NCBI GenBank assembly: GCA_950295325.1 | Contig: OX485808.1 | Coordinates: forward strand, 13,764,501 to 13,828,500 | Reading direction: 5' to 3' | Source: Polytrichum commune | Taxonomy: Eukaryota; Streptophyta; Polytrichopsida; Polytrichales; Polytrichaceae | DNA length: 64,000 nt | In this document: positions 29,577-51,500 of the stretch, in pieces | How positions within the stretch are numbered: position 1 is the stretch's first letter | Layout of the letters: each line of letters opens with the position of its first letter | The notes under the pieces: model-generated | Seen by the model: only the letters and a program-made list of their open reading frames with translations | The model's database searches: none | Told to the model about the DNA's origin: nothing | Position numbers and translations under genes: made by a program

Positions 29577-30231
29577 AATCCAAAGCCGCTGTTCTGGTGA
29601 ATAAATCTAAAAATTTCATGTAAATCACAGTCTCTCAGTTCCTCCTATATACATACCTAGTGTAGTTTGAAGAAGCTCACATGTCTGTTTCTCAAAACAC
29701 TACTTGTTGATTGTGATTTAAGTCAGAATACTGTGCAGACTATTTTTCACATGATTCAGATAACCACAATTGCTGGATTGACTCTAATACCTAGTGATTG
29801 AGTGAACCTCAGAGTTTTGAGCTTTGGGAACAAATTGCCCTGCAAAGCTTGTTTGTAGCAGGTTTGTTGCAGCCACGCAGATGTTCGTTGACCTCCAATT
29901 CAATTGTCTTAACCCAACTGAACGAACTAGGTATACCTTAAAACTCAACAAGGAGCTGGCGTTCTTCCTTGCCAGAAGAAGCAAACACAAGCAATAAGAT
30001 TCAGCAGGACAGGAGCAGCTGGAGGCTTATGTGGAGGGCTAGGAGGAGGGGTAAAAAGACAGAAAGATCTTTAAAATTAAAGCCGAAATATCACTCATCC
30101 CTAGATGCTCACCCACTTGCAATAAGAACCAGATTAAAATTAACCAGCTACCTTACTTTTTTGAGTAAATTCATTTGCTTAGTTTCTGGAGTACCCGCCC
30201 CTTCACCCACAGGATTTGGTCTCTCTCATGA

Positions 30232-30793
30232 CCAGGGCTGAAAATATCAGAAGCTCACACAGATCAGAGAACAAAGAAGACATGCAAAACGACGGCAACT
30301 TAAAAAGCTTCCAAAGCACCAACCATCATGTTATCTGCACAATGACATACTCCAAGGCTTGAACCTTCATACGTCAAAAAGAAATTAGGACAAACCTTGT
30401 CAGGGGGATACAAAACAATTAGAAATTAGAAGTAAAAGGAGAGCAATGTAGTATCCAAGAATTTATTTGATACAAAGTTTTAAATTCCACCAGTATGCAA
30501 GCCACCCTCCTTCTCATGACCAAGACTGGAAATAGCAAAAGCTCCCACAAAGATGAGAGAACGAAGAAGACATGCATAGAGGACGGCAAATCAGAAAGAT
30601 TCAAAGCAACAACATAACATTATCTGCACAATGACACCACTCCAAGAATTTAACTTAATACGTCAGAACGCAGTAGGGCAAACCTTCAAGGAAGAAACCT
30701 TGCAATTAGAAGTAAAAAGAAAGAAAGGAGCAATGTAGTATCTGAGAAATTTTTTGATACAAAGTTTTGGTTTCCATCAATCATCAGTATGCA
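30232..30793 (-). repeat. Tandemly duplicated U-box 3' UTR
   Basis: Segments 30232-30496 and about 30519-30793 are co-linear copies offset near 290 bp. Shared blocks are AAGAAGACATGCA, ATTATCTGCACAATGACA, CAATTAGAA(AT)TAGAAGTAAAA-like sequence, GCAATGTAGTATC, TTTGATACAAAGTTTT and CAGTATGC. The stop codon of the U-box gene is at 30800-30802, so the proximal copy is its 3' UTR. Only the distal copy keeps an AATAAA (minus strand, 30462-30467). Confidence 0.75.
30462..30467 (-). terminator. Probable poly(A) signal of the U-box gene
   Basis: AATAAA on the minus strand, about 335 bases after the stop codon, in the distal copy of the duplicated 3' UTR. The matching position of the proximal copy reads TTTTTTGATAC on the + strand and has lost the signal. 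Confidence 0.4.
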
Positions 30794-30799
30794 TTATTA

Positions 30800-33700
30800 T
30801 TAACATTGGTAGAGCGGGAGAGCGACCCTTGTCTTCCAGATAAACGCAAGAGACCCTGAGCGCGACTTCCCAAACTTGCGGCCACTGCCAACCTCTTTCT
30901 TTTCTTCCTTCCGGCCGCTGCCTCCCTTGCCTGTGCCAGTGCTGCCTGCAGCTTTCACTGAAGGAGATTGTTGTTGCACCTGCTGATGATCTGCTTCTTC
31001 CGAGCTTTCGGCACTCGCTGCTGTAGTAGTGCCCATGCACAGAGGGGCAGAGTGTGAAAAAACAGTGTCCTTCTGTCGCTGTTCACGGAAATGTTGTAGT
31101 AGTTTTTGGGCTTTATCTTGGCCACGGGGATTGCCACCTACGGAGAGCGAAACGAGTGCAGGAATGACGCCTTCCCGCAGCACGAGTTGGCTATGTTGAG
31201 AACTATTGGTACACAGAATTAGCAGAGTCGCAGCCGCATGCTCTTTCTCCTTCAAACTGCCCGTCTCCAGAATTTCCGCAAGCACCGCGATGCCACCCTC
31301 GGTTTCCGCAATGGTCGACCGCCCTTCTTCGATGGATGACACATTGTACAACAGGGCCACGATCTTCTCTAACAGGTCCACCTTCCGTAAACTTAGAAGG
31401 TGAACAAGGATGGGAATCGCGCCCGCACGCACCACACGTGGCCGATTACCCGTAAATATGGTAAGATTATACAATGTCGTCAACGCGTCTTTCCGACCCT
31501 GATTTGAGCCGGAGATCAATAGCTGCACTAGGAGAGGTATTGCTCCAGACGAGCCTATACAAGCTTTGTTCTCATTCAAGCAGGAGAGGGTTAAAAGGGC
31601 AGCGACGGCCGCCTCTTTGCAGGCCCGACTTGATCCTGCTTTCAATAACTCCACAAAAAGCGGTACTCCCCCAGCTGCTACCACCGCTGCCTTGTTTCTG
31701 CACACAAACAGGAACCCACATTTAACTAAAGCACTTTGTTGCATTTCAGGCTCATCCACTACTGTAAAATTGTGTGCAGTACATATTTTATGGTATGTCT
31801 AGCAATACCAGGGCCAAGGATTCCTGTCACGCTCAAGTGAGATGAACGTGAAAATGTTGGGAGCTCCTTATAGCTCAGAGATTTTATTTCTTTTCTCAGC
31901 ATATTTGACCCCAGAATTAGCATCCTACTGAGATTAAATTGGGATGACTAAACCATAAACCTATAGGGAGTAGCTTTTTACCAGCTTTGATCACGTACAC
32001 CAAATTGGTCATATACCCCACAGAGGACTACAGGACCTGGAAACACTATAACAGCCTGACTGACACATTTCAAGTCTCGAAGGCTCAAATTAGTATGTGA
32101 CCTAAAGAGTTCCTTCAAACCTAAAAGAGGCATGGTTACAAAGAACCCAAGAGTAGAATAAAGCTGCATGGAAAAACCTCTGGATCCATAATTCTGGGCC
32201 CGGACTAATTACCGCACCCTCTCTTCATACAAGCCTATCTAAACAATCAATGCCCACACACTGAAGGGTCATTTACGCTAGGGGTAGTTGTGGTCATGGT
32301 TGTAGTTGTGGTTACTTTCTTTAGTTCTATTTCCATGGAAAATGCATACTAAATGCTAACCACAACCACAATCACAACCCTACCCCATTAACCCCGCTAC
32401 TCTGCATGGTTAATCACCCTTGGGGTGGTTGTTCATGCCCATGTGGCATCCTTAGAGAGCTTCAAGGACAAGTTCCGGAGAAAGTTGAAGAGGCAACCAT
32501 TTTAAGACCACAATCCAAGGCCAACAAGGACAATGTAATCACTTTGATTCTTCTTGGTCCAAGAGCTAAACCAATGATAGATTGCGATTTGAAAGACTAA
32601 CCCACCATCAACCACAACCACAAGGGCTCACACAAGACAAGTGCGAATGAAAAAAACCATGGTTTTGGTTGATTTTGGTGGCTAACAACAACCACCTTCG
32701 TAGTAAATGACCCTTGAATCACAGGTCACAAAATAAAGGTCTGTAGAAGATATACCTGTCATCACTAATGGCCACATTAAGGAGAGCAAGGGCTCCCACT
32801 TCCTGAGCACCTTGCTCATCAGCTTCCATCGCTGCACGAAGAAGTTCTACCAAAGCAGGAATCGCACCTCCGTCTCCAATCCGCGACCGTACCTTTGCAT
32901 TTGTCCTTGCAAGCACCCGAATCTCCTCCGCCACCAGGCACCGCTGTTGTAACGAGCCTTCCGTAAGGTCGACAACGAGCTCCTCAAATCGGTTCACCCA
33001 TTGGTCTTCGGGAAGCTCGGGTATATCTAACCCTCCTCCTCTTTCAGCACACTGATGATGATGATGATAATGTTGATGATGAGACCCTGACCCAAGTGAG
33101 TCCCCAGTGATCGAAGAAGCATCTTCACAATTTTGTACACCCTCCCTGACAGGGCTGCTACTACTACGGTCATCTTGAGGGGCTTTTCCAGGCTCCTTGT
33201 TGTTGCCACCAGTGGCGGCGGCAGTATTATCAAGGTTTTCATCAGGAAGGTCGTCAACGGGAACCACGCGTGCATCCTTTGACTGCTCCCCACTCCCCAC
33301 TTTCACAAGCTCAGAACCGGAGAAAAGCTCCCATCTCCAAGACGTGACAGGTGAGGGAGGAGGCGACGGTGGGTTTGGAATTGCAATGTTGTGTGACTCA
33401 CACCAACTTGCAATTAGGCCTTTGACGCAATAGTTGGGGGTGATGTTGAGGTGTGCTAACACCTGCCGTGTCTTTGGACACGTTACATGGCCTTCCTGCA
33501 AACCACCAAACAGCCTGTTAATAATAATACCAAGTGACAAGGAGAGTATAGTCAACTGACAAGCTCTCCTCATTAGTCAACACCTCATGCTTACCTATCT
33601 TTGGACAAAGCCTTCTCCCATCTACAAAGATTCAACTTAAAGACCTTGCCAAGGAGAATCTTACCGAGTGTATCCAAGATGCTTATCTAGGAAGAGCACT

Positions 33701-42058: not shown

Positions 42059-42383
42059 CATGATTTATCGTCTACCATTCGATGAATACTATGTCAGATT
42101 CTTACCTTGATATAGGCTTTTGCATTAGAGAGGGGTTACACATGAACTCTACTTAATAAACAACAACTAAGAGCAAGCCCACTCTCCTTGCATATGCATC
42201 CGCATTCACACTTTAACATCCGCATTGTAGATGCAGATGCAGAGAAGCCGCCCACTCACTGACGTACGTGGTCTTCACGAATGAAATACTATATGCCAGA
42301 AGCCTCGAAATCCCTACATATGTGAGATATGCATGGATTTTTTTTAAACCTTTGACCTACTACTTTCCCTCTAGTATCAGTTA

Positions 42384-42720
42384 GTTACATATGATCTAGA
42401 TGAATTTGAGAAATGACATGTTGAGGTTTGGGACTTGAGGAAAATTACTCGTTATAGATGATCTGGGCGAGGCTGAGAAATAACCGGTTGAGGTTTGAGA
42501 CTTCAAGAAAAATGCTAGTTTCAGATGAACCAGATAGAGTTTGAGAAATAATTGGTTGAGGTTTGAGACTTGAGGAAAAAATACTAGTTACAAATGAATC
42601 AGATGGAGTTTGAGAAATAAGCAGTCGAGGTTTGAGACTTCAGAAAAATTAACCATCATAAATGAACCGGGCGAGTTTGAGAAATAACCGGTCGAAGTTC
42701 ATGACTTCAAAAATTACCGA
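42384..42720. repeat. 67-bp minisatellite, five units
   Basis: Units start at 42384, 42451, 42518, 42587 and 42654, spaced 67, 67, 69 and 67 bp. Each contains AGATGAACCGG (or a variant), GAGTTTGAGAAATAACCGG, TTGAGGTTTGAGACTTC and AAGAAAAATTAC. One isolated relative lies at 59088-59160 (GTTACAGATGGACCGGTTAA, TTTGAGAAATAATTGGTTGA, GACTTCAAGAAAATTACCGA). Confidence 0.85.
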
Positions 42721-43374: not shown

Positions 43375-44864
43375 ACTATGGATAAGATTTCACGGTCTCC
43401 TGGAATTTGCGTCAGGCCTGACGCAAGTTAAGGGAGACCATGCCTTTTTTCAATATTTTTTTCCAACATGATATATTTAAGGACACATTGCAAGGCATAT
43501 TCTATAATAGATTCTAGGACATACAAACACCACCAAGTAATTCTTTAAAATTGATAGAGTTTGAGACATATTATATTGAACCGAATCCTCCCCTCTTTTT
43601 CCGCCAACAAAATATGCAATGGTCCCGCAACATGGTCCGTTCTCAGTTCACACTATGCTTCAGGGCCCGTGACTGCATAAAACGACTTTCCCAACACCCA
43701 TGGTACGACCTTTGGATGAGAGTCTAATATGGGAAAGACAAGTTCTGGCTAAACATTATATCTACTTTCTATTTAGGCTCCGAAACCTCGGTGTTATAGG
43801 TTTGATCCTTAGAATTCAAAGGTTCTTTCTCACATACATTTTTCATCGAGTCCTCAACTTGGGCTTGGGGACCATGGCCTCTATGTAAACTCATCCATCA
43901 TGGATGAAGGGGTTCGAGTGAAAAGAAGTCTCTTACATGTTGAGGATCGATTCCGAGTCATTCCGATTAGATAGCTCTAGACTAATTTGGAAATTTGATG
44001 CCATTTTTGAAGTCAATTCATCTTTAAATAATGAACATTTATATGTCACGATATAGTATGATGCGTTTTCACCATCCGAATGGATGAGTTCACAAATCCT
44101 TGTCCCAAGTTTTGGGATGGATGATTCTTCACAGCTATTCTCATCGAGAGACCCGTTCTGAAGATGGATGAATTCATGTTCGGGGTTCGAGGGCACTTGA
44201 GGAGGCACAAATTGACCGAGGTTGTCATCTTTTCATCCAAACCATGGATGAGTCATGGGGGCAAGAAACGGATTCAATGACAGAGTTGGAAGTATCATAC
44301 TCGCGGTTCCGCATTTAAAACCTCAATGAGTGAAAATTTTATGCAAAATTTGGGGTAAGTAGGCTTCTCACTCTTGGATACCTAGCCTCTTAGGGCTGCT
44401 TTGCACTAGGGTCTATGACTAAAGGTATTCCAAAATCAAGTGTTCTTATTAGTCAAGAGCAAAGTTTTGGATCCAATGAATTTACACTAGGCTTCTAATT
44501 CAAGTTTCGAAATTTTAGGTAACACAAATCGTCCAATTCAATCAAACAAATAGAATACATTGTACATTGATACTCTTAGTTAGTGAGGGGGGAGGGCTAA
44601 TAGTGGGCGTTGGGAAATTAGTGACGGTGATACTGGATTTCTTTTTGCTATGAAATCAGTTCAAGGAAGCATTGTTTATCCCGGCATTACTGTAGTACCT
44701 TGACCACTTTGGCATTCATTAAATTATTTTTGAGAATTTGAAATTTTCTTCTTCTGGAAATCACATTTTCAAAATCTCAAAAATTAACATGGAAAGAATA
44801 GCCTAGGCTATTTTTTCTTATATGAAGTTGGTGTGTGTAGCTATACCATTCAAATCAATATACC

Positions 44865-45420
44865 ATGCAAAACCTTCATACCTGTGCGAAATTGCCCTAG
44901 TGTCAATATAATTTAAAATAATATCGACTCAAATAATAACTCAAGTATACAAAGATTCTCTCACGTTGAGACACTTTATTGGTGTTGCAATTTTGTTGCC
45001 AACATGTGAGTTATGTGATACCATGTAGGATGTTAGTTAGTAACATTGTTCATTCACCTATATATTAGTCCTAGATTGGTACTTACCGATGTTGGTATGG
45101 TATCGCCTTCTTTTGATACCATCAGGGTATCTATAATGAGGATCCACATTTTTGGATACCAATATGTCACGAGTATTTGATGCTATTCTTGTTGTCAATG
45201 GCATTCTGGGACTGTATACATACAAGATCCTTCATACATAGGAAAATTTGTCCCACTACCAACATGGTTTAGAATAGTATTGACCCGTGTAAATAACTCG
45301 GGTATACAAAGATTCTCTCACCATGACATATCAATATTTGGCCGGTGTTACAAGACAATTACCCCACATGCAAGGTTACTTGATACCATCGTTGATGTTG
45401 ATTATCAATACCATGAGTTC
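44865..45420. repeat. Family G: duplicated ~190-bp segment
   Basis: 44865-45050 and 45225-45420 share CCTTCATAC, AATTGCCC/TTGTCCCACTA, ACTC(A/G)(A/G)GTATACAAAGATTC, TCTCAC and GTTACTTGATACCA-like pieces in the same order. A third, inverted relative lies near 50080-50260 (GAGAGAATCATTGTATACCC, GGTATCATTTTAGACCATAT). Confidence 0.55.
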
Positions 45421-46957
45421 ACATGTAAGGCAGACATGCCTAACTCCGACACGACTATAATCTAGACACCTACATGTGAGTGGCATGGGGTTGGATGTGG
45501 ATCTAAGAACGGATACCAAAGAGATGTGTGTACAAGAGAGAATTGGATTGCACGCTCAACCAATGCTAACGATTCTAGGTTAATAGTCAACATGATAAGG
45601 GGGAACCTACATGACCACTTAACAAGCATGAGAATCTTTCACTTTGACATCGAATAAGAAATTCACATGAACTTCAAAAATCATCATAGGAATGGCTATG
45701 CACACGATATAGCTTTGCTGATCATTTTGCATTACTTGCGTGCTTTCATCATTATATTCGTTAATTTGAGACTTAGTCTTGTCTCAAATTAATATATGGA
45801 CCACAACAACATGGTCTAATGTTTGGGTCGTCCTACCTAAATCATCTTGATATGAGTTCTTAATTGGGTTCTTGATATGAACACCCGCTTCAAAGTATTT
45901 GCATCTTACAACATTCTCTAATATCTGTGTGATTTTATCCATGTTCTTATATTGTAACTGTCTCAAAATGCCGAAAAAGTCCCAAATTAACGAATATAGT
46001 GATTCATACAAGAAGTGGTTGTGAAGAGAGAAAGTGTCCAAATAACACACCATCTACCTTATACAAGTCCAACAATATTAGTATTTTTGACCAAAATCAG
46101 TCAAAATCCAAGTGTTTCCATGTCCAATCGGTTACATGTTGTGATCCTTCGGGTTTTCTTTATTAATTTTAGGTATATTCCATGGATTCCTTTAAAATGA
46201 TGAGTAATTTTCCCAAAGTCTTGAACTTCAACCATTTATTTTCTTAAACTCAACCGGTTCAATATGTAACTAGCGGTCAATTCTCCCCTTCATTGAAGTG
46301 GTCTTGACTCTTGTATGTTAACTTGAGTAATCAACCATCGGGACCGGATTGTACAATCATCACTATAAGGGCATTATTGTTTTTTATGACACGCTATACT
46401 ACCCCTCAAACCTTGGGATTTAAGACTTGGGTTCCGGGGAAACACTTTAAATGCGTCACTTGCACTCGGTCTACTTAGCCCTAACCTCCCCAAAAACCTA
46501 TTTTTGGTTGATGGATGATTTCTTCCTTGCATCAACTCCCATTAACTCATTCATCTACAATCAAAACAATTATTAGCATCAAGCCAGCATGGATGTCCAC
46601 CCATAGACACAAGAGTTGTGTAGATTGGAGATGATTACAATGTGGGGGGGGGGGGGGATGTCAAAGTAAGAAGTGGTTATGCTTGTCAAAGTATGCCAAG
46701 GAGAGAGGAATCATTGTATCTGAGTGTACCTCTCATCCATCCAACATAAAAATTTGATCCCCCTATAGGTTTGTTGTTGATTCATCTCAAATGACTTCGA
46801 GTAAGGTAGACTAATTTGGGGTCTTTAAAACTACTTCCAATGTCAAATCAACTAAAAAGAAGTAACAACTAGGTTGCATACCGGTATAAGTGTAATGTAA
46901 CTAGAATTATTAAGGAATATTCTAACTACATGTGCCAGTGTGTAAGCAGAAAAAGAT

Positions 46958-47354
46958 GAGAGCTAGACAACTCTCGGTTGAGGATGAATGGAAAGGAGTA
47001 AGACAACTCCAGATTGACAACATGTGCACTGGAGTTAGACAGCTCCGCATTTAGTGCATTGGAACTAGACCATTCCAAGTGAGAACAAGTGCACATGAGT
47101 TAGACAACTCTCGATGAGGTGCACAGGAGTTAGACCACTCCATGGATAAAGCTAGTTGGAATTAGACAGTTCCAACTAGAAGATTGACTAGTTGGAATTA
47201 GACAATTCCAACTAAGAGAAAGGTTGGATGAACCAAGTTGGAATTAGACAGTTCCAACTGGAATGAAGGATGAATGTATTTAGTTGGAATTAGACAGTTC
47301 CAACTAGAAAGAAGAATGGATGAATCCAATTGGAATTAGACAGTTCCAATTGGA
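46958..47354 (+). repeat. Array of eleven short hairpins with constant AGAC loop
   Basis: Each unit is an exact inverted repeat around an 8-nt loop of form NNAGACNN. Loops start at 46963, 46999, 47035, 47065, 47100, 47130, 47162, 47198, 47244, 47290 and 47336. Stems differ but always pair: GAGAG/CTCTC, GGAG/CTCC (three units), TTGGAA/TTCCAA, GAG/CTC, CTAGTTGGAA/TTCCAACTAG, TAGTTGGAA/TTCCAACTA (two units), AGTTGGAA/TTCCAACT and TCCAATTGGAA/TTCCAATTGGA. Centre-to-centre spacing is 36, 36, 30, 35, 30, 32, 36, then 46, 46, 46. Stems lengthen from left to right, from 3-6 bp to 8-11 bp. No other copy was seen in the window. Confidence 0.9.
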
Positions 47355-47448
47355 ATAATGGAATTGAGATAAGAGATGAAAGAAGGTTCTAGAAGAACCA
47401 TAGATAGAAGATTCATAGTAGAACTATGAGATAGAGCTATGAATAGAA

Positions 47449-47484
47449 TACTTTTACTATATATAAATATAGAAAGTAAAAGTA
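47449..47484 (+). promoter_or_regulatory. TATA-like sequence in a hairpin loop
   Basis: TACTTTTACT at 47449-47458 pairs perfectly with AGTAAAAGTA at 47475-47484. The 16-nt loop between them reads ATATATAAATATAGAA and holds a good TATA-box match. Two other hairpins precede it: GGTTCT/AGAACC at 47385-47399 and TCATAG/CTATGA at 47413-47429. Confidence 0.5.
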
Positions 47485-47608
47485 GTGCTTCGGCATAAAA
47501 GGAAGCTCGGGGGAGGAGAGAGGATCTTTTTTGTCTCTCTCCTATGGTCGGGTGGTAGAGCTTCGTTGACCAAACTTTATTTGGTTGCGGTTTGTACTTA
47601 GAGGAAGA

Positions 47609-47614
47609 AATAAA
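47609..47614 (+). terminator. Possible poly(A) signal of the LTR-like unit
   Basis: AATAAA about 140 bases after the TATA-like element, where an LTR would be expected to carry its polyadenylation signal. Confidence 0.35.
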
Positions 47615-47692
47615 ATTGGTGTTGGTTTCAATTCTTTACTTTGAGATTTTGTGGTCAAGACACAAATTGCCAACCGGTGAGAGGTTCGTAAT

Positions 47693-47890
47693 AATAAGGT
47701 ATGCGGGTATTATTTGGTTTCCTTTCTAAATTAGACACCCATATTAGATTGGTGTGTAGTTAGGTGATGATCAAAGAACAAACATCATAAGGACAAATGT
47801 TTGAAAGGGCTCGGACTACATCTTTCAATTATCTACTCCACGCTCACTAATGAACACAGTTGGGAGGACCTATGTATTCAATTAAGGAAT
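47693..47890. repeat. Truncated family B copy
   Basis: It begins TAAGGTATGCGGGTATTATT, followed by AATTAGACACCCATATTAGA, TGTGTAGTTAGGTGATGATC and GGGAGGACCTATGTATTC, matching the left half of the 16.8-kb copy. It abuts the LTR-like segment. Confidence 0.5.
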
Positions 47891-47934
47891 CAATGAACAT
47901 GCACTTTCAACAACCCCAGGGAGATCACAAGCTA

Positions 47935-48555
47935 TGAACTTCTATAACCCACATGCAATCAGGGGTAAATTAAAGGATGAGCTATTTATTGAATAATTGG
48001 TACCCTATTAGTTGATAAAATGGTACTTGGAGGTATTTTTCAAGACTCTACATATAAGTAGAATTTACACCATAAATTTATTTTAAGGACTCTATTTTGT
48101 TTGCAAATTGTACCATTTATCAAAATATTGAAAGTTTGACATAAATCAACATAAATCCATAACAAAACAACAACAATACATTAACGGTACATGCAACTAA
48201 AATTTAATGGCACCTGGTTGCAACACTATCTTGAAACTCTCAGTAACCACCCCAAACTTGCCAACATCTAAGTTGATGATTTTTAATCAATTGGGGAACT
48301 TCTCATCCAATCCAAAGACATTCATTGAACCTCACATAAATTCTTCGTTCTTCCAAATGTAATAGACCGTGCTTTATTAATACAAATTAAAGACCGCCTA
48401 TATTTTCCACCTACCCTATTTTAGATATATTATTGTATGGGTCATTCCATCCAAGCTATAGTAATTCCAAAAAATATATAACTTTTTTCTCTCTTGAATC
48501 AAAGTACCCTATATTTTTCCTTGTGTGATTTAATTAAAATTTTAAAGTGACCTCC
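47935..48555. repeat. ~620-bp dispersed repeat D, copy 2
   Basis: Same order of blocks as 41502-42058: TCACAAGCTATG, GGACTCTATTTTGTTTGC, ACCATTTATCAAAATATTG, AATACATTAACGGTACATGC, TTCCACCTACCCTATTTTAG, CATCCAAGCTATAGTAATTC and AAAGTGACCTCCATG. It is slightly longer through small indels, one of which adds CCTCACATAAATTC. Confidence 0.75.
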
Positions 48556-51500
48556 ATGTACAGGGTTATCACACGTCATACAATAGATTTCTCACTGTGA
48601 CCATAACACAGAGCTTTGCACTTTGACTCTTCTTTCAATCAAATTATTGTTTCCCATGGTTTAGTTCTATGTTGATGATTCACTCCTCACATGAGAATAA
48701 AAAAAATAAAGTGTTTAAATTTTCATGACCATGCACCATGAACAAACCACAATTTGGAGATTATATCTCCAACATGGCTTCTCGCCCCAATTAACTCATT
48801 TGCAAACTATGGTTTTGATCATTTATGAATTCTTTAGCGTTTCTCACCTTGTAGGATTAATTCATGCTATTACATTAATAATAGTCTTGACACAAAACAC
48901 TTATTGAGACAAAATTGACCTTATCGAGAAGAAGTCTATGGGCGATGAAAGCAACTTTTGGCTTCTGGTGAGGCCACGTTGCCTGTGCTTTCTCGACCGT
49001 TGGATTTGACCGATGTAACCCTCCTCCCCTGATCTCCTCCGTTCCTGCCACCACTCATCCACTGCGTTCATTCCATGGTTTCATATCTTGATTACCCAAT
49101 CACAAACTATGGGAATAACATGAGTTTCAACACAAAGTACCCATTTGTGTCTCACGGATCAAACACACGTTCAAGATTATTTGTCAACCCGACCATAATT
49201 TAATAGATTTGGACTCCTCGACCACGGCCTTCACAACTTGGTACTCCCATAAACAACTGTATTAATCGAATTATTTGTTTAATTCATATGCTCTCTCCCT
49301 GAGAGTCAAGACAATGATTTAGACAAATACACCATGCAAACTGAAACAACTGGATATCATTCGTGAAAGAGGTACTTACAAAAGCAAGAGCTTCACACCC
49401 AATTAATTGAATTTGAGTGAGGTTTTTGCACAATTGAACATCAAAATCAAGTCCAATCTCTTCTTGAGAGGGATCTTCTATTTATACAATATCTTTTGAG
49501 TCTCTTTTGACTTCATTTTTCCATGGCCAATGATATTGTATGGGGAGAAGGAGGAGAAAAACTATGGCCACAAAAGATACATCCGTGCACAACTAGATCC
49601 AAAAGGTTCTCCTAATTCTCCACACGTCTATTGTAACCTCACTAAAACTCCTCTTAACCCTTGCCAATGGCCAGTATGTTTGACCTAGTAGATACTAACC
49701 TCTTTTGATTTGTTACTGATTAATTTCAAGACTCCTTGACCAAATTAGCGTTCATATAGAAGATTATAGCTAGCAAATAATTCAAATTCAAAAATTAGCT
49801 ATTCTAGGCGAAAATTTGGATGACACTCCCCATGCAATAACCATACCCAAATCCAAGGAGGTTTTCTCCTCAACCATATTTTTGTTGACGTTTTTATCAT
49901 AAGTTTGCTACTGCAATACAAATTTGAATATATTAATATGGTCAATAGATGATGAGGAAGAAGAAAACTGAGCCACTTAATAGCCATACACCTATAGGTG
50001 AAAGTATATTACCTAACCAACATCAATTATGGTATCCAAGAACTTACCCATGGGTATCAAAATTGTAATACCAATCAAATGTTGCAGACAACGCGTATCT
50101 TAAGCTCACCCATTGATGGGTATCTCAAGTCGAGAGAATCATTGTATACCCAAGCTAGTATATGGGTTGGTATCATTTTAGACCATATTGATTTTAGGGT
50201 GAGTTTACCTGGCTACAAAGGTTTCTACATGGTATAAAAATGGTTCACAAATGTGGATGGCATCAAAATAAAAAATAGCATTAAATACCCATACCCTATT
50301 AGTTTCAAGTAAAAATGTAAAAATCTTGTTATAGAAACTTGAATGGTATAAATAATGATGATGCCAATCCAACACTAGTTATAACCCCATTATTATCATC
50401 AACAACCACAAACTAGTAAGGTGGATGGTGCTAAAATCGCTACCTTTGAGCACTAAGTGTATATGTTGTTGTTGCATCTATTTGTGTTAATACTTGACAC
50501 GTGATTCCAACAAATTAAAAATTTATTTTATTTGAGATCCATATGTAAAAGTTACGAGGAGTCAAAGTTTTATTGGCCTAAATCAATAAGGGAGCATGAC
50601 GCTTAGGTGCCAAATATTCTTAGTTTCAATATGTATTTTTTGTACAAATTTTGAGGGTGTTTGTTTTGGGTGGGTTGCATAGAATATCAAGTTTTTTTTA
50701 TGTTGGATGGATGAAAAGTGTGCTTGTATGCAATAATTCTCTCTCTTCCAAAAGAGGACCTAGACTTGAAGATTGGTTTCTCAAACTAGTGGGGTTTGTT
50801 GAGAAGTAATAGGAATGTGATGCCACAATGGCGCTACTTCAAATTTTCAGACTTTAAACCCACACCCTAGTGTAGACTGCCTATTTCCAACCCTCTACTC
50901 CACACCAACAAGATTGCTTCATCTTGGAGTTTCTTTGGTCTTTGGGCACGTTTACACTATAGGCAATAGGCCATGGCTCTTAGATGACCATGGTACCCTA
51001 AACCCTAAATCCATAAACTAGGACTTGAGCATCAACATATCTTATTCAACATACAAATGCACACAAAATGGTTAACTCAATGGCACCCAAAAGTGATCCC
51101 ATGTGGTGTGAAGCATGACCTATCCGCCCAATCATTGCATCTGGCTTATCAATACATTCTTTTCAGGCCATCACTTTTACAGTCAACCATCTGGATCCAC
51201 ACAAGAATTATTCTACTCCTAGTCTAGTGCACTAGTAATGGTCATTCACATTTGTTTTGTTTCTTTACCTTAATGACTTCCTCGTAAACATGCCTTTAAG
51301 AAGTGCCAACTCACCATCATTCACATTGGATTACAAAGGGCTAGGGTTTGGTGTGTGTTTGTTGTTTTTAGTTTTTTTTGGAGGGATATGATGACCTGGC
51401 ATTTTTCATTTAAGACAATAGGAGTACCATTAAATAGGTGGACCAGGCCTACTTGTCCCAGCCCTATACTTGTCTATCTTCAATTCGGCTCTAATTTAGC

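Follow-up and report, generated by a model that had tools for sequence, protein, structure and literature searches.

Arrays of palindromic motifs are known from the LTRs of Sireviruses, which belong to the Ty1/copia elements: each element carries at least 8 such repeated motifs (RM boxes), with 3-14 in the 3' LTR (PMC2829016). According to the account given there, most RM boxes are found in the upper LTR half, a short distance 5' of a conserved TATA box, have a CGG-CCG core (except in Tnd-1) with a short gap or none, are located in CpG islands, and vary between elements in a way that retains their symmetry; the authors describe them as specific to Sireviruses when compared to classic Ty1/copia elements (PMC2829016). 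In maize Sireviruses small RNAs pile up on the palindrome clusters (PMC10760457, citing Bousios et al. 2016), and for Sire elements U3 inverted repeats that pair outside the LTR are described (PMC3601003), an arrangement different from the one reported here. The LTR of ONSEN, also Ty1/copia, contains a heat-response element (nTTCnnGAAn) that was tested in the plant, and it has no CG sites (PMC3907296). LORE1 (PMC2832683) and Del (PMC4029996) are, like the element reported here, Ty3/gypsy plant chromoviruses, and have a regulatory U3; a key-word check of the main text of both papers for palindrom-, inverted repeat and tandem repeat returned no match. Tnt1 box I and the tandem cis-elements of plant LTRs are named in PMC2829016. 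As symmetric or tandem transcriptional activators within an LTR, these resemble what we propose for the present array. We take them to be present in few copies and to be unrelated to it in sequence.

The array analysed here lies in a window of 64,000 nucleotides from Polytrichum commune. Judged by comparison with these systems, it is a variant palindrome array of the Sirevirus-like kind, which is built on another core and belongs to another type of element. As with the RM boxes, many dyad units (eleven) lie in an LTR upstream of a TATA-like, loosely conserved stretch (compare PMC2829016), and as in the maize clusters the palindromes of the LTR control region are able to fold into hairpins (PMC10760457). 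Unlike in the Sireviruses, however, the host element is Ty3/gypsy, with RT preceding integrase and a chromodomain present; the arms are GGAR/YTCC around NNAGACNN, with the core AGAC instead of CGG-CCG; and the array is no CpG island, containing 3 CpG in 397 bp (observed/expected 0.19). For these three reasons we regard it as comparable to the Sirevirus boxes yet not as a member of their class. The maize Sirevirus motif also differs, being CACCGGACNNNGTCCGGTG, and small-RNA data exist for the Sireviruses (PMC10760457). With ONSEN the element shares a heat-shock element in the LTR (GAAnnTTCnnGAA at 47382), here as a sequence match only, but it differs from ONSEN (PMC3907296) in being Ty3/gypsy and in having 10 CpG in the LTR. 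In the literature searched, judged by title and start of abstract, we found no published account of the array; a match to the motif string in one plant paper is an SSR primer. The features of the locus are:

46886..46890, no strand: left target-site duplication, ATAAG
46891..47693, + strand: solo LTR of a Ty3/gypsy chromovirus, 803 bp, TG...TA termini, 99.5% identity to both LTRs of the complete copy L009
46958..47354, + strand: array of eleven AGAC-centred dyad units, placed in U3 from the LTR ends and the TATA-like stretch
46958..46975, + strand: unit 1, GAGAG-CTAGACAA-CTCTC; relatives with GGGAG/CTCCC
46995..47010, + strand: unit 2, GGAG-TAAGACAA-CTCC
47031..47046, + strand: unit 3, GGAG-TTAGACAG-CTCC
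47059..47078, + strand: unit 4, TTGGAA-CTAGACCA-TTCCAA
47097..47110, + strand: unit 5, GAG-TTAGACAA-CTC, 3-bp stem only
47126..47141, + strand: unit 6, GGAG-TTAGACCA-CTCC
47152..47179, + strand: unit 7, 10-bp stem CTAGTTGGAA/TTCCAACTAG; many relatives have a GGAG-type unit here
47189..47214, + strand: unit 8, 9-bp stem
47236..47259, + strand: unit 9, 8-bp stem
47281..47306, + strand: unit 10, 9-bp stem
47325..47354, + strand: unit 11, 11-bp stem TCCAATTGGAA/TTCCAATTGGA
47382..47394, + strand: heat-shock-element-like site GAAGGTTCTAGAA (GAAnnTTCnnGAA); the window has no other three-module site of this kind
47458..47471, + strand: TATA-like stretch TATATATAAATATA, candidate core promoter, read from the sequence
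47694..47698, no strand: right target-site duplication, ATAAG

All eleven AGAC sites (46965, 47001, 47037, 47067, 47102, 47132, 47164, 47200, 47246, 47292 and 47338) are on the + strand, and no AGAC is found on the - strand within 46901-47420. In ten of the eleven units an 8-nt loop is closed by a perfect stem of 4 bp or more (5, 4, 4, 6, 4, 10, 9, 8, 9 and 11 bp), while unit 5 (47102) pairs over 3 bp only, GAG/CTC. The sequence-only reading, which had spoken of eleven perfect inverted repeats, thus slightly overstated their number, but the regular spacing it described, ending in three intervals of exactly 46, is exact. Its constant AGAC loop holds for all 11 units of the window and not for every relative, since in 6 of 37 aligned rows unit 6 has TTGGACCG or TTGGACCA instead. 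In units with the loop TTAGACAA, inspection suggests that two further pairs are possible, leaving a tetraloop. The array is far above the chance level: in 2000 dinucleotide shuffles of 46901-47420 we obtained a mean of 0.022 AGAC hairpins with a stem of at least 4 bp (maximum 2), compared to 10 observed, and in the whole window, on both strands, only 2 of the 382 remaining AGAC sites have such a stem. Tandem Repeats Finder detects the array with periods of 46, 65 and 92. Elsewhere in the window, and separate from this array, a 67-bp unit is repeated in tandem ~4.9 times (42382-42710) and a 287-bp unit ~1.9 times (30224-30768).

Several simple explanations of the units were considered and set aside. 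An origin from a tRNA or small gene is rejected, as an ARAGORN run on the window found no tRNA within the array and none of the listed ORFs of at least 80 aa lies inside the LTR; the one tRNA-like gene of the window (32847-32940, - strand), to which ARAGORN gave no type, is possibly a chance match. Helical phasing is likewise rejected, because the weighted R is alike (0.42-0.50) over periods of 9.5-11.5, so that only inherited spacing is left; distinct unit spacings give R of 0.10-0.14 (0.10 at 10.5 bp, M = 28). The units themselves do not qualify as heat-shock-factor sites, by the reasoning that their GAA and TTC are 8 bp apart and thus outside the 5-bp phase. TGTCT, which the units show on the - strand, is the auxin-response motif, but it is absent from units 4 and 6 of the window.

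While the array itself was seen correctly in the sequence-only reading, its retrotransposon context was missed. Searching the genome (408 Mb, 64 contigs) with the array stretch, we obtained at least 40 matches of 90-100% identity (40 scored among 611 candidates), which often occur in pairs ~5.3 kb apart. One such pair belongs to L009 (G000:C7:29246500-29253300), a complete LTR retrotransposon with a 5-bp target-site duplication (ATCGG) and LTRs that show no difference across 804 aligned bases (803 by boundaries). Its internal region encodes, in Ty3/gypsy order and in three separate pieces by Pfam, Retrotrans_gag and RVP_2; RVT_1 and RT_RNaseH; and Integrase_H2C2 and rve, the rve match falling below the curated cut-off. 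A chromodomain is found at the integrase C-terminus (PF00385 Chromo, 31 bits against a cut-off of 25.1). Directly after the 5' LTR follows the primer-binding site TGGTATCAGAGC, which we take to be that for tRNA-iMet, and the 3' LTR is preceded by the polypurine tract GGAAGGGGGAGAT. The identical LTRs, together with one long open frame, indicate that the family was active recently. All 20 detected units of L009 are in its LTRs (10 each), with none in the internal region. The window copy matches L009 over the LTR only, at 99.5%, and is flanked by ATAAG on both sides, and is therefore a solo LTR; no match to the L009 internal region exists within 44001-50000 of the window. The sense strand of the element is the + strand of the window. 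As to termini, the TG...TA ends are found in the window subfamily (also in L001, L003, L004, L007 and L008), and the canonical TG...CA in the relatives L041, L071-L074 and L076-L078. LTR matches in opposite orientation lie close together at G000 C2:10222553-10224108 and C5:8470234-8471232, which suggests nested or inverted insertions.

The TATA-like stretch, a candidate core promoter, begins 104 bp from the end of unit 11 and is loosely conserved in relatives: TATATGTRAA occupies its position in 13 of the 18 relatives printed, and of 34 rows only 5 have a plain TATAAA or TATATA 3' of the array. Given its position before this stretch and the boundaries of the LTR, the array most likely represents U3, ahead of the transcription start. 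The heat-shock-like site at 47382 is intact in 37 of 54 A/B rows (the group closest to the window copy, defined below), while a three-module site anywhere is present in only 25 of 81 loci. The site, which lies between the array and the TATA-like stretch, suggests a possible heat or stress responsiveness as in ONSEN.

A whole-genome motif search, as proposed in the sequence-only reading, gave 904 sites (413 + 491) for TTGGAANNAGACNNTTCCAA and 309 sites (164 + 145) for GGAGTTAGACAACTCC, with 0 matches for either reversed-pattern control. For comparing units among copies, L011-L070 were picked for matching one or the other of two perfect patterns, so that paired units are over-represented and counts among loci show the form of the units and not their prevalence; L091-L150 were picked by whole-array similarity. 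The copies of the window's own subfamily (L001-L010) were excluded from every unit count, and L019 and L070, whose arrays are mostly unrelated or missing sequence, from the A/B counts. L017, L020, L026, L040, L044, L054, L064, L084 and L088 are outside both alignment groups.

Of 141 loci, 134 contain one or more AGAC hairpins with a 5-bp stem, and across the 141 loci, each turned to its unit-richer strand, such hairpins number 353 on that strand and 6 on the other, a ratio that is partly built in; when the 55 A/B rows are oriented by the LTR instead, the counts are 207 sense and 1 opposite. AGAC is by far the most frequent loop tetramer (219 hairpins in 81 loci; runner-up 21, median 0). In 322 of the 353 hairpins the 5-bp arm is TGGAA (215), TGGAG (80) or GGGAG (27), and the three bases preceding the loop are purines in 352 of 353. 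The number of units differs among copies. At unit 7 the orthologue reads ATTGGAG...CTCTCAAT (12 rows) or CTCTTAAT (6 rows), where full-length pairing needs one bulged base; these variants are seen in the relatives L013, L015, L022, L023, L030, L042, L046, L063 and others. A one-base bulge of this kind is easier for an RNA hairpin to accommodate than for a rigid DNA dyad.

Our strongest result concerns when the units are allowed to change. Changes were counted by parsimony on a tree made from non-stem columns, with internal branches standing for replication and terminal branches mostly for the time after insertion. In the 55 rows of the A/B group, made up of LTRs whose match to the window copy begins near the LTR start, the internal changes per column are 0.19 for stems, 0.23 for AGAC, 0.55 for the loop flanks and 0.82 for spacers, compared to 1.42, 2.05, 1.07 and 1.50, respectively, on terminal branches. 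Stems and AGAC thus change ~4x slower than spacers on internal branches, with no slowing on terminal ones (Fisher tests of internal versus terminal changes against spacers: stems p = 1.6e-9, AGAC 4e-7, loop flanks 0.89). The 35-row A/B alignment gives 0.23, 0.23, 0.40 and 0.58 on internal branches and 0.93, 1.18, 0.75 and 0.90 on terminal branches, in the same order of columns. In the A/B group, therefore, the arms and AGAC are held while the element is replicating and released after insertion. In the diverged group the internal rates for 35 rows run in the same direction (stem 0.93, AGAC 0.75, loop flanks 1.17, spacers 1.34), and in a realignment of 75 rows, which contains just 7 units and 16 usable pairs, only stems are slower (1.34, 2.07, 2.35 and 2.01); both alignments of this group are poor.

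These rates bear directly on the idea that the array is a passive tandem repeat without function, symmetric only because its founder unit happened to be a palindrome. Tandem duplication is indeed evident, stems equal spacers in terminal-branch rate, and the 75-row diverged set partly removes the difference on internal branches. A passive repeat, however, does not account for the slower internal change of stems and AGAC in the A/B group, nor for the persistence of units where the LTR is barely alignable (L017 gives no LTR match, L044 a single 52-bp match). We disfavour this explanation and consider it very unlikely.

We also asked whether the two arms of a stem change together. On the internal branches of the 55 A/B rows 5 both-arm changes are found, all from one Watson-Crick pair to another, compared to 0.18 when partners are shuffled (reached in 0/500); on terminal branches there are 8 (5 pair-to-pair) compared to 2.84 (1/500). 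The ratio of pair-to-pair changes to one-sided breaks is 5:6 for internal branches, compared to 5:132 for terminal ones (Fisher 2e-4). For the 35 A/B rows the internal count is 5 versus 0.28 (0/1000) and the terminal count 3 versus 1.68 (229/1000), and with the stricter within-unit partner shuffles, over all branches, 8 changes are observed versus 4.10 (reached in 26/1000). The clearest orthologous paired change is at unit 1, with GAGAG/CTCTC in the window's group and GGGAG/CTCCC in its sister group. Units 7 and 11, two of the three units with internal changes, may have undergone whole-unit replacement by a neighbour; without them 1 internal both-arm change is left versus 0.07 (68/1000; 35 A/B rows). 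In the diverged group the internal and terminal counts are 9 (4 pair-to-pair) versus 2.09 (0/1000) and 18 versus 7.16 (2/1000) for 35 rows, and 3 (1 pair-to-pair) versus 1.14 (45/500) and 14 versus 5.22 (0/500) for the 75 realigned rows. Coordinated change of the arms is thus supported, resting on few events. The compensated stem changes reported in the sequence-only reading accordingly stand insofar as they exceed partner shuffles in the A/B group; they are few, become weaker under stricter controls, and depend on the alignment in the diverged group. One-sided changes in other copies, which that reading had held would speak against it, are common, yet they fall mostly on terminal branches.

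Both-arm changes exceed shuffles on terminal branches as well, in three of the four data sets (absent in the 35 A/B rows), which leaves room for arm copying or unit exchange. A bias in copying, through template switching on the hairpin during reverse transcription, correction of one arm by the other or exchange of units, could keep the arms alike with little selection on structure; a hairpin-copying mechanism had already been raised from the sequence. It would fit the terminal excess in the 55 A/B rows and in both diverged sets, the varying number of units among copies, and the possible replacement of units 7 and 11 by neighbours, after whose removal the single internal event (versus 0.07) remains. 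Copying bias alone, however, does not predict that stems and the unpaired AGAC change more slowly on internal branches of the A/B group; the unit 1 change sits within otherwise alignable flanks; and one-sided decay dominates the terminal branches, with 132 one-sided breaks versus 5 pair-to-pair changes (A/B). As an account of the array, copying bias therefore seems improbable to us, though less so than a passive repeat.

Whether the units are read as DNA or as RNA can be approached through the kind of mispair that is tolerated: under selection for a sense RNA fold G.U should be tolerated over A.C, while for reading as double-stranded DNA both are equivalent. Among 399 distinct units, which were selected on the basis of a single purine or pyrimidine arm and have some chance sites among them, stem positions 1-3 show 67 G.T and 63 A.C. 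When the pooled units are counted at positions 4-5 of the stem, G.T and T.G together amount to 102 versus 50 for A.C and C.A, with inherited variants counted many times. Internal one-sided breaks to G.U and A.C number 4 and 5 (35 rows) and 3 and 1 (55 rows) in the A/B group, and 19 and 9 (35 rows) and 9 and 14 (75 rows) in the diverged group; the terminal ratios are 41/33 (35 A/B rows), 55/47 (55 A/B rows), 43/42 (diverged, 35) and 32/31 (diverged, 75). With the low power of these comparisons in mind, a consistent excess of G.U over A.C among one-sided breaks was not found in the A/B and diverged groups, so RNA folding is not specifically supported. The G.U lean at stem positions 4-5 and in the 35-row diverged group points slightly towards RNA. 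Both strands fold far better than shuffled sequences (sense z = -9.7, opposite strand z = -8.8), as any array of palindromes must. In 46800-47800 no Rfam family reaches its gathering score, and since the three matches seen are all sub-threshold, we rejected a known RNA family. The restriction of the arms to a few purine-rich sequences favours recognition of sequence over pairing alone, with the caveat that the mutations are mostly transitions.

The main rival to recognition as DNA is that the units are RNA hairpins. The U3 of the 3' LTR should occur near the 3' end of the genomic RNA, where it would form a row of AGAC stem-loops that could be bound by Gag or a host RNA-binding protein, or give rise to small RNAs. 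Such a structure classically shows stems that change together around a constant loop; the sense strand folds at z = -9.7, hairpins in the 55 A/B rows are 207 sense to 1 opposite, both-arm changes exceed shuffles, pairs at stem positions 4-5 lean to G.U, and small RNAs are found on the maize Sirevirus palindrome clusters (PMC10760457, citing Bousios et al. 2016). On the other hand, the opposite strand folds about equally (z = -8.8), tandem duplication also yields a shared orientation, the core pairs show no consistent excess of G.U over A.C, the arms are confined to few purine-rich sequences, and no Rfam family is found at gathering score in 46800-47800. We consider RNA hairpins possible but unlikely. 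Of the readings offered from the sequence alone, selection on a folded RNA thus finds agreement in the both-arm changes but no consistent signal in G.U versus A.C, and the alternative of sites for a dimeric factor is favoured here by the restricted arms and the lack of a consistent wobble preference.

At a probability of about one half, we read the array as an enhancer in the U3 of a Ty3/gypsy chromovirus LTR, made up of protein-binding sites with two-fold symmetry. This reading draws on the position of the array in the LTR, the abundance of its unit types in the genome, the slow internal change of arms and AGAC in the A/B group, the restricted arms, the lack of a wobble preference at the core pairs, and the Sirevirus precedent. 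Each unit, approximately GGAR-NNAGACNN-YTCC with outer TT/AA extensions, would be a candidate two-fold symmetric site for a host factor that recognises double-stranded DNA and contacts the core as well as the two arms, and some eleven such sites in tandem would lead to more LTR transcription. Units may be created and homogenised through tandem duplication and unequal exchange, and this would account for their regular spacing, their common orientation and some of the paired changes. Several points speak against protein-binding sites of this kind: a plain dimer site predicts neither the joint change of the arms nor an asymmetric AGAC as conserved as the arms, and we could name no candidate factor for an AGAC-centred site; the spacing shows no helical phasing other than what is inherited; stem positions 4-5 and the 35-row diverged alignment lean slightly to RNA; AGAC and the loop flanks are no slower than spacers in the realigned diverged group; and conservation of the TATA-like stretch is loose. 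It is rather unlikely, though somewhat less so than copying bias, that true hairpins form in the 3' RNA or single-stranded cDNA of the element, with AGAC loops shown to Gag or a host protein and pairing itself under selection. If this were the case, the U3 of a plant chromovirus would contain a multi-hairpin recognition array for packaging, dimerisation or evasion of silencing.

With enhancer sites as the preferred reading, the finding that a Ty3/gypsy lineage has a comparable palindrome array, built on another core, suggests an ability of these arrays to originate independently, and hints at a recurring need of plant retrotransposons, either for strong binding of host factors or for some use of the fold. 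As the copies of the family are numerous and differ in age, the selection acting while the element replicates can be set directly against the decay that follows insertion.
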